The translations under genes were made by a program, and so were the position numbers. The notes beneath the pieces were generated by a model. That model was not told the origin of the DNA. It was given only the letters and a program-made list of their open reading frames with translations, and searched no databases. From assembly GCA_016208915.1 (NCBI GenBank), contig JACQXE010000073.1, positions 1 to 34,264 on the forward strand: 34,264 nucleotides of DNA, in the 5' to 3' direction. The stretch is from Nitrospirota bacterium (GTDB lineage: Bacteria; Nitrospirota; Thermodesulfovibrionia; Thermodesulfovibrionales; UBA1546). Within the stretch, counting starts at the first letter, position 1. Every line of letters starts with the position of its first letter. This document shows, in pieces, positions 4,301 to 6,831 of this stretch.

Positions 4301-4390
4301 ACAGTTTTTAGTTTCTCTCGCAGCAGCTCTCCTCGGCGAGTCCGCCTGAGTGCGGACGAGTCGCCTGTGGCAACAAGTTTTTAGTTTCCA
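4301..4390. repeat. Dispersed hairpin repeat (AGTTTTTAG family)
   Basis: The unit starts with ACAGTTTTTAGTTTC and ends with CAAGTTTTTAGTTTC. It contains CTCCTCGGCGAG, the hairpin GTCCGC-CTGAGT-GCGGAC (4340-4357) and GAGTCGCCTGTGGC. It shares its modules with 2068-2107 and 6169-6226 and lies between the vapC remnant and the coaBC end. Confidence 0.65.
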
Positions 4391-4584: not shown

Positions 4585-5214
4585 TCAGGAACAACCTAAC
4601 AACGCAGAAACAGTATCCAATATCTTTTCTGCTGCCTCGTCTTTTGTCATAAGCGGCAAGGGAGTTTCTTTATTCTTCTCGATAATCGTTATCTTATTCG
4701 TTTCCACATCAAAACCTGATCCGGCAGAGGTTACGTCGTTGAAAACAATGATATCAACATTCTTTTTAATCAGCTTTTTTTTCGCTCTGTCTATTTTCAT
4801 TCCGGTCTCTGCTGCAAAACCAACGATAAAGGGTCTCTTCTTTAATTGTCCTATCTCGGAAAGTATATCAGGAGTATTTCTGAATCTGATATCCATCTCA
4901 GCATGTTTATTCATCTTGTCCTTCTTTTTTACATCCGGCGTAAAATCTGCAGGCGCTGCTGCCATGACAACAATGTCTGAATTTTGAATATGACTAAAAA
5001 CAGCATCTCTCATCTCATTGGTTGTCTCTACAGATATAAATTTATTCAGATTATGCGGCGGCCTCAGAGCGGAGGGTCCGCTTATCAGCACAACATCGGC
5101 GCCCCTTCTTATGCATGCGCCTGCAATAGCATATCCCATCTTTCCTGACGACCTGTTAGAGATAAATCTTACAGGGTCAAAATATTCACGTGTCGGCCCT
5201 GCGGTGACTATAAC
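4585..5214 (-). CDS. coaB: CoaB half of CoaBC: phosphopantothenate-cysteine ligase (frame-shifted)
   Basis: This frame encodes 209 residues of phosphopantothenoylcysteine synthetase, the second domain of bifunctional Dfp/CoaBC, which joins cysteine to 4'-phosphopantothenate. Starting at GTT 5214 it reads VIVTAGPTREYFDPVRFIS, the expected N-terminal nucleotide-binding motif, then KMGYAIAGACIRRGADVVL, MAAAPADFTPD, and PFIVGFAAET. It has no start codon of its own at the motif; the first ATG (5139) would remove the conserved N-terminus. It is therefore read by frameshift from coaC across the A12 run, or the run has a one-base error. Fused to coaC by a -1 shift the protein would be 400 residues, the normal CoaBC length. 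Confidence 0.85.
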   Translation of the reverse strand, partial: VIVTAGPTREYFDPVRFISNRSSGKMGYAIAGACIRRGADVVLISGPSALRPPHNLNKFISVETTNEMRDAVFSHIQNSDIVVMAAAPADFTPDVKKKDKMNKHAEMDIRFRNTPDILSEIGQLKKRPFIVGFAAETGMKIDRAKKKLIKKNVDIIVFNDVTSAGSGFDVETNKITIIEKNKETPLPLMTKDEAAEKILDTVSALLGCS

Positions 5215-5226
5215 TTTTTTTTTTTT
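5208..5226 (-). other. Slippery site / frameshift between coaC and coaB
   Basis: The coding strand has 12 consecutive A (T-run 5215-5226) and then G. The zero frame reads TCA AAA AAA AAA AAG TTA TAG and stops at once. A -1 shift on A AAA AAG, the same heptamer and phase as dnaX, continues in the CoaB frame. One extra A, from transcriptional slippage or corrected sequence, gives the same result. Whether it is programmed, a mutation or a homopolymer sequencing error cannot be decided here. Confidence 0.8.
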
Positions 5227-5786
5227 GAAAAATCTTTCTTGCTTAAAGCTGATTTTACTGCTTCAATAATTTCACTTGTTTCAGCCATCCTGCCTGTTCC
5301 CTCTTCGCCGCATGCAAGCTCACCCTTTTCAGGTCCGATCTGAATAACACCATGAGACAAAAGGCGCTTGAGGTTCTCCTGAAATATTGGATTTTCATAC
5401 ATCCGCCAGTTCATTGAAGGCGCAATAACCACTTTACCTCTGAAAGAAAGCAGACATGTGCTTAAAAGATCATCGGCAATGCCGTTTGCAAATTTCCCTA
5501 TTATGTTTGCAGTGGCAGGCGCAATAACCATAAGGTCAGCATCTCTTGGAAGTTTTATATGTGTCATTGGAGAGTCAAAAAGGCCTGAATAGACCTTGTT
5601 ACCGGATGCGATTTCAAGCGAGAGAGGGGTTATGAAATTTTTTGAGGCATCAGTCATTATAACTGTAACAGACGCCCCTTCATCTTTCAGTCTTCTGACT
5701 AAATCAACTGTCTTGTAAGCAGCGACTCCGCCGGTTACACCGACAAAAATACTCTTATTCTTCAGCGCCTTCTTCCTGTTTTTCAC
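5208..5786 (-). CDS. coaC: CoaC half of CoaBC: phosphopantothenoylcysteine decarboxylase
   Basis: The 192-residue product is the flavin-dependent decarboxylase that makes 4'-phosphopantetheine in CoA synthesis. Visible motifs are VGVTGGVAAYKTVDLVRRL (FMN-binding start), MTHIKLPRDADLMVIAPATAN with the active-site His, APSMNWRMYENP (the PxMNxxM substrate clamp) and LACGEEGTGRM with the catalytic Cys. The reading frame ends in a run of lysines encoded by poly-A and a stop just before the CoaB domain. The listed start is a GTG overlapping the rpoZ end by 32 bp; a CTG eight codons in, closer to the family start and behind AGGAAG, is possible. It is the last gene of the yicC operon. Confidence 0.88.
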   Translation of the reverse strand: MKNRKKALKNKSIFVGVTGGVAAYKTVDLVRRLKDEGASVTVIMTDASKNFITPLSLEIASGNKVYSGLFDSPMTHIKLPRDADLMVIAPATANIIGKFANGIADDLLSTCLLSFRGKVVIAPSMNWRMYENPIFQENLKRLLSHGVIQIGPEKGELACGEEGTGRMAETSEIIEAVKSALSKKDFSKKKKL

Positions 5787-6153
5787 TAAAAAGCTCTTCT
5801 AATGCAGCTTTGTCCTTTGACTCTTTCTCGTGGAGATATATCTTCAGGTCTTTCTCAAGCTCGGTAAGCTCTTCAGGAGCCATTGCCTTTCTCTTTTCTT
5901 CAAACAATCTCTTATAGTCGAATTTCTTTGCCTCTTCCTTTGCCTTTACAGCGCTTTCTCCGACAACAAATTCAATCTTGCCTGCAAGCGCCTCTTCAAG
6001 AGCTATTGTAGCTACCTTTCTGGATTTTGTCTGAACCCTCGGTTGCGCCCCAAAAGAAAGTTCCCTTGCCCTCTGGGAAGCTATCATTATGAGCCTGTAC
6101 CTTCCATCGATATTCTTGTCCTCGATCTCCACTGGAAGTGAAATAATATCCAT
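5755..6153 (-). CDS. rpoZ: RNA polymerase omega subunit with C-terminal extension
   Basis: Residues 1-70 match the omega subunit: DGRYRLIMIASQRARELSFGA and the helix KVATIALEEALAGKI, which clamps the beta-prime C-terminus during core polymerase assembly. The remaining ~60 residues are a charged helical tail (KEEAKKFDYKRLFEEKRK...EKQEEGAEE), longer than in E. coli omega. AGGAGG, embedded in the last codons of gmk, precedes the ATG, and the gmk stop codon abuts the ATG directly (TAAATGG). Position between gmk and coaBC is a widespread arrangement and supports the call. Confidence 0.9.
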   Translation of the reverse strand: MDIISLPVEIEDKNIDGRYRLIMIASQRARELSFGAQPRVQTKSRKVATIALEEALAGKIEFVVGESAVKAKEEAKKFDYKRLFEEKRKAMAPEELTELEKDLKIYLHEKESKDKAALEELFSEKQEEGAEE

Positions 6154-6831
6154 TTATCCTCCTGATCTTTTTGCCTCAGCGTCTCCTCGGCGACCCGCCC
6201 AAGGCGGGAATCCGTTGAGGTGAAAAAATTTTTCCTTTATCCATAATGGGTCTATTTTTTCCGTGCGCACCTTCTCAGAGATTACTATAGATTTCAATCC
6301 CTCAAGCGCATCTTTAAACCCATCGTTAATTATAACATAATCATATTTTTTATAGTCCCTTATTTCCACTAATGCCCTTTTAAGCCTGGTTTCTATTTCT
6401 TGTTTGGAATTAGACATCCGCAGATGAAGGCGCTTTCTCAGGGTTTTCATCGAGGGAGGAAGTATAAATATATAAACCCCGCCTGAGTAATTCTTCCTGA
6501 GCTGTTTTGCACCCTGCACGTCTATATCAAGAATGACATCTATTCCTTTATTTAGCATTGATTCCAGTTTTTTTCGAGATGTGCCATAAAGATATCCGTG
6601 AACCTTTGCCCACTCCACGAATTCGCCTCTCTCAATCATTTTGAGAAAAATATCCTCACTGATAAAGATATAATCCCTATTATTTACCTCGCCTTGCCTC
6701 ATGGGTCTTATTGTATATGAAACAGAGTGCCTGAGATTAGGAAGAATCAGACTCAGTTTCTGACATAGTGTAGTCTTGCCTGCGCCTGAAGGCGCTGAGA
6801 CAATGAAAAGGTTTCCTCTATCCCTCTTCAA
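6154..6831 (-). CDS. gmk: Guanylate kinase with repeat-derived C-terminal tail
   Basis: The 225-residue product phosphorylates GMP to GDP using ATP. It shows the P-loop [15 protein letters not shown], the GMP-binding [39 protein letters not shown] and [12 protein letters not shown]. The family usually ends near residue 205; here the last ~20 residues ([20 protein letters not shown]) are encoded by a hairpin repeat (6169-6226) that also occurs in intergenic spacers. The same tail supplies the ribosome-binding site of rpoZ. It overlaps remA by 14 bp at its start. The catalytic core is intact, so activity is expected. Confidence 0.92.
6169..6226. repeat. Hairpin repeat fused into the gmk 3' end
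   Basis: GCCTCAGCG.CTCCTCGGCGA, the hairpin CCCGCC-CAA-GGCGGG and a closing GTTGAGGTG lie inside the gmk reading frame. The GCCTCAGCG and CTCCTCGGCGA blocks are shared with the intergenic repeats at 2082-2107 and 4327-4357. This suggests insertion of a mobile hairpin repeat that replaced or extended the original stop region. Confidence 0.6.

Follow-up and report, generated by a model that had tools for sequence, protein, structure and literature searches.

The high rate of ribosomal frameshifting in E. coli dnaX has been linked to the sole tRNA-Lys of that organism; Thermus has two tRNA-Lys species and uses transcriptional slippage (PMC5009743). A minority type of dnaX is also known, in which the longer product is the one that requires the shift (PMC5009743). 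Insertions made during transcription of A/T runs are mostly of a single base, and they rise exponentially with run length, a relationship measured to 9 nucleotides (nt) in E. coli and to 11 nt in Buchnera (PMC5574713). Corrected transcripts make up 12 to 50% of those from endosymbiont poly(A) runs (PMC5009743), and in Citrobacter rodentium RNA polymerase slippage on an A11 run rescues the full-length tssM1 product at about 20 to 25% (PMC4256274). Rescue by slippage is best known in AT-rich endosymbionts and in secretion genes. We found no literature linking coaBC to slippage.

The window analyzed here is the whole of a 34,264-nt contig (C66) from a Nitrospirota genome of 2.51 Mb (88 contigs, 98.8% complete, 42% GC). 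The coaBC gene and the two genes upstream of it lie on its minus strand. The coaC half of coaBC (5208 to 5786) is a zero-frame open reading frame of 192 amino acids (aa) with a GTG start and the C terminus SKKKKL*, and it matched the Flavoprotein profile (PF02441, E value of 1.4e-37). The CoaB half lies in the −1 frame, which is open for 225 codons from 5262 to 4585, and it matched the DFP profile over positions 2 to 186 of 186 (PF04127, E value of 1.4e-68). On the 392-position coaBC model TIGR00521, the CoaC half covers positions 1 to 187 and the CoaB half positions 178 to 391, so that both domains are full. The two halves meet at a run of 12 A residues (A12; 5215 to 5226), identified by direct reading and by genome run counts. 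From 5228 to 5208 the minus strand reads TCA AAA AAA AAA AAG TTA TAG, which places an A AAA AAG heptamer (5214 to 5220) in the CoaC frame and the TAG stop of that frame (5208 to 5210) two codons past AAG. The CoaB frame reads AAA AAA AAA AAA GTT ATA GTC ACC GCA across the same stretch. Owing to the TAG and the frame change, bifunctional CoaBC is not encoded here as a single open reading frame; a −1 shift would give a product of 400 aa. In the Mycobacterium smegmatis structure the natural domain linker comprises residues 180 to 189 (PMC7794376), and A12 sits at the equivalent CoaC/CoaB junction. An earlier reading of this DNA from its letters alone (the sequence-only reading) had described both the stop two codons beyond the heptamer and the −1 frame leading into an intact CoaB and a 400-aa CoaBC; direct reading confirmed the first, and the PF04127 and TIGR00521 matches confirmed the second.

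Directly upstream of coaC, and overlapping its start, is rpoZ, encoding the omega subunit of RNA polymerase (5755 to 6153; TIGR00690), followed farther upstream by the guanylate kinase gene gmk (6154 to 6831; TIGR03263). The rpoZ family match is confined to residues 13 to 62 of 132, and its C-terminal extension, which runs over the start of coaBC, has a similar counterpart in a relative (L236). Two similar short GC-rich intergenic elements, each with ctcctcggcga followed by an inverted repeat containing ccgcc, were seen at about 4320 to 4375 and about 6170 to 6225. Present in at least two intergenic places, they are possibly a dispersed repeat.

In the order-level search, coaBC was found in 61 of 61 genomes, as a single match without an internal stop in 56. 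Apart from the window gene, the exceptions include two genes broken away from both the junction and any A run, one by an indel near residue 143 (G016) and one by a TAA codon that lies in frame within CoaB (G035). In two genomes of one genus (G024 and G054), the flagged stop lies at the extreme N-terminal end of the match, and the gene itself is open. All 12 intact coaBC genes from the same family, representing five other genera, are in frame through the junction. Their runs are A10 in seven, A9 in four, and A7 in one (G065), with junctions such as TCA AAA AAA AAA GTT and TTT AAA AAA AAA GTT. The junction in the window is GAT TTT TC-A12-GTT ATA; with A10 in place of A12 it would read through in frame and encode as many residues as in the relatives. 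Judged against these sequences, the window run is the family A10 plus two bases, or else one base short of a 13-A version; the extra lysine implied by A13 is present in no relative. Of the suggestion that the run had been miscalled by one base, a miscount is still a live option, but the size needs correcting, the in-frame length in the family being A10 (or A9) and the anomaly being +2. The proposed comparison of run length and stop codon among related genomes gave an open junction in all 12 intact family genes, none of them with A12. One genome of the family (G062) has coaBC divided over two contigs, C148 (L236) and C263 (L235), whose ends lie at the poly(A) tract or no more than about 15 nt from it. 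For this genome a break of the assembly at the run was considered and dropped, one contig end being about 15 nt before the tract. In G056 (C14:25915-25927; L217), an A13 run stands at the very end of an open frame on the coaBC strand, some 380 nt upstream of coaBC and close to its tract.

The sequence-only reading had missed the conservation of the run: the tract, A9 to A10 in most relatives, is an old feature of the family, spanning six genera when the window is counted. A run of at least eight A directly 5′ of the CoaB motif was found in 9 of 396 Nitrospirota genomes, all of them in this family. Tracts of at least 10 A are rare there (40 in 13 genomes); coaBC carries one in 8 of the 13 genomes, in one of which (G064) it is the sole such tract, and when the 40 were compared as translated sequences, none but coaBC was shared by different genera. 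At the three lysine positions of the tract AAA is used 35 times out of 35, versus 213 of 395 (54%) across the lysine columns of the gene. AAA AAA AAA encodes KKK in 11 of the 12 family coaBC genes but in only 2 of 103 cases in sampled genes, against an expectation of about 24 given lysine codon use; E. coli has been reported to avoid AAA AAA AAA as well (PMC5009743). Nowhere else in the gene are three codons in a row identical across five genera, and the tract is the longest such stretch, although agreement between genera at fourfold sites is only 0.35 to 0.50. In 12 of 12 family genes each of the two alternative frames meets a stop no more than 13 codons past the tract, versus 9 of 25 GC-matched others. 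This pattern is suggestive of selection for the tract but is not proof, since the family genes are related and a single gene was tested. Shared ancestry could explain part of it, agreement between genera at twofold sites being still 0.57 to 0.76. No viral contig carrying the tract together with the CoaB motif was found, nor was any plasmid near-match.

We tentatively favor the explanation that A12 is a lengthened form of this conserved slippery poly(A) tract and that full-length CoaBC is made through transcriptional slippage. The coding run is uninterrupted and longer than 9 nt in the window (A12), and it is A9 or A10 in 11 of the 12 family genes. One added base, giving 13 A in the message, restores the CoaB frame. 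Polymerase slippage and a miscounted run, both raised in the sequence-only reading, are live options. Under the favored explanation, this family of Thermodesulfovibrionales would have kept a slippery A9 to A10 tract at the CoaC/CoaB boundary. In the relatives the default frame would yield full-length CoaBC, and any slip would leave just CoaC, since each alternative frame soon meets a stop. In the studied genome the +2 change would reverse the default, so that the unslipped message gives CoaC alone, ending at the TAG at 5210 to 5208, and a fraction of transcripts, lengthened by RNA polymerase to A13, would yield the 400-aa CoaBC. This account takes A12 to be the length that truly predominates in the cells, presumes that the RNA polymerase of this species slips on it, and supposes that the tract has been kept owing to its slipping. 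By analogy with the rescue rates of tssM1 and the endosymbiont genes, slippage on A12 by this non-model polymerase could plausibly supply enough CoaBC. Three considerations weigh against the account: making an essential enzyme solely by slippage would be costly, A12 is known from one MAG contig, and in G065 the run has shrunk to A7 with no visible harm. The retention of the tract across the family is the broader point and is better supported than rescue by slippage. A more ambitious version seems doubtful to us, namely, that slippage at the family tract sets the CoaC:CoaBC ratio, supplying extra CoaC core subunits for the dodecamer, and that one genus has switched its default frame and there depends on slippage for full-length CoaBC.

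A consensus or population artefact at a hotspot is nearly as likely as rescue by slippage. Here the true run in the cells would be A10 or A13, both in frame, or a mix of lengths, as from a mixture of strains, and the contig would report A12; we regard this as a serious possibility. Counts over both strands of the 2.51-Mb genome gave 53 A9 runs, 4 A10 runs, no A11 run, and 1 A12 run. A12 is thus the sole A/T run longer than 10 nt and by far the longest in the genome, it falls exactly at the frame break, and long homopolymers are a classic site of error. Its length has no counterpart run in the genome for calibration. However, about 35 other coding runs of A9 to A10 are in frame, well within long open frames. 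For frame breaks elsewhere, a codon-usage frameshift finder proved too insensitive, and a dicodon version flagged mostly overlapping neighbor genes; we therefore used a stricter test of open reading frame pairs, exhaustive for overlapping pairs with coding signal on both sides, on 434 kb sampled from the genome. In that sample coaBC alone stood out as a clear split gene that had no restart codon 60 nt or less from its stop. A second split gene, a B12-binding/radical SAM gene found by eye and not flagged by the pair test, is broken at a T9 run (C70:20392-20400): a stop closes the first frame about 10 codons past the run, and the remainder of the radical SAM domain lies in another frame. This case favors an artefact, as do the breaks in G016 and G035 (2 of about 75 other order-level MAG coaBC genes), although those two lie away from A runs. 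The rarity of frame breaks in the assembly argues against a generally poor consensus. Moreover, a +2 consensus error from the family A10 would be unusual, and A13 would demand the lysine that all relatives lack.

The sequence-only reading had called the heptamer dnaX type and in the correct phase. The heptamer is indeed present in that phase, but the phase is weak evidence: a broken A run followed by G allows two phases, one of which gives the heptamer, so the chance is about 1 in 2. The ribosomal mechanism implied by the name fared less well. No SD-like stimulator (GGA, AGGA, or GAGG) was found within 40 nt upstream of the heptamer, and the downstream sequence folded no better than shuffled sequences (z scores of −0.63 and −0.89), giving no sign of a stimulatory stem-loop. 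The genome encodes tRNA-Lys(CUU) on C70 in addition to tRNA-Lys(UUU) on C27 and so does not have a single tRNA-Lys. Programmed −1 ribosomal frameshifting at A AAA AAG, setting the CoaC/CoaBC ratio in the manner of dnaX, is therefore improbable, despite the phase of the heptamer, the stop two codons on, and the precedent of the minority dnaX type (PMC5009743). In the relatives, moreover, the frame is open, so a programmed −1 shift toward CoaB is not conserved.

The argument of the sequence-only reading that conserved halves speak against a dead gene held up. The CoaB half has no internal stops, and its identity to the outgroup (f11) is 0.65, versus 0.65 to 0.68 for the other genera. Within the family, CoaB identity is 0.62 to 0.71 for the window and 0.66 to 0.75 among the other genera; the CoaC half shows no such extra distance. 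The slightly greater CoaB distance might hint at mild relaxation, but the effect is small. No second DFP domain or CoaB copy was found in the 98.8% complete genome. An independent CoaB start was rejected, as the CoaB frame contains no ATG, GTG, or TTG 5′ of the first motif (VIVTAGPT). A recent frameshift in a dying or dispensable coaBC, or a division into two separately working polypeptides, is accordingly very improbable for a sole and undecayed CoaB half that lacks a start of its own, even though stand-alone CoaB and CoaC proteins are known (NCBIfam coaB_strep and coaC_strep).

If the favored explanation of transcriptional slippage is correct, slip tracts can be retained instead of being purged from the gene for an essential enzyme in free-living bacteria with 42% GC, and unequal production of CoaC and CoaB becomes simple to test for. 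If A12 is instead a consensus error, the tract still marks an indel hotspot common to the family, at which coaBC annotation in MAGs will be broken.

Among known systems, tssM1 of C. rodentium and tssM3 of Yersinia pseudotuberculosis resemble the window gene in having a poly(A) run and an early stop in the default frame (PMC4256274). The opposite default frames of tssM1 and Y. pseudotuberculosis tssM3 likewise parallel those of the window gene and its relatives (PMC4256274). The tssM genes, however, encode a secretion component and their slippage was measured, whereas coaBC encodes an essential enzyme of coenzyme A synthesis for which slippage is inferred. In Buchnera and Blochmannia, otherwise intact genes broken by an indel within an A/T run are considered to be rescued by transcriptional slippage, according to accounts of Tamas et al. 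(2008) in later papers (PMC3017870, PMC5009743). Those genomes differ in being tiny and very AT-rich, with 114 to 153 coding poly(A) tracts of at least 9 bp in Blochmannia, whereas the tract described here is a conserved rarity in a genome of 2.5 Mb and 42% GC. E. coli dnaX shares A AAA AAG in phase; unlike it, coaBC has no SD-like stimulator or strong stem-loop, and its genome has a second tRNA-Lys. Thermus thermophilus dnaX resembles those relatives of the window gene that are in frame: its slippery run is nine bases long, stops lie close by in each of the two alternative frames, and there are two tRNA-Lys species (PMC5009743). In that gene slippage yields the short product at about 1:1, whereas for coaBC such a ratio is hypothetical.
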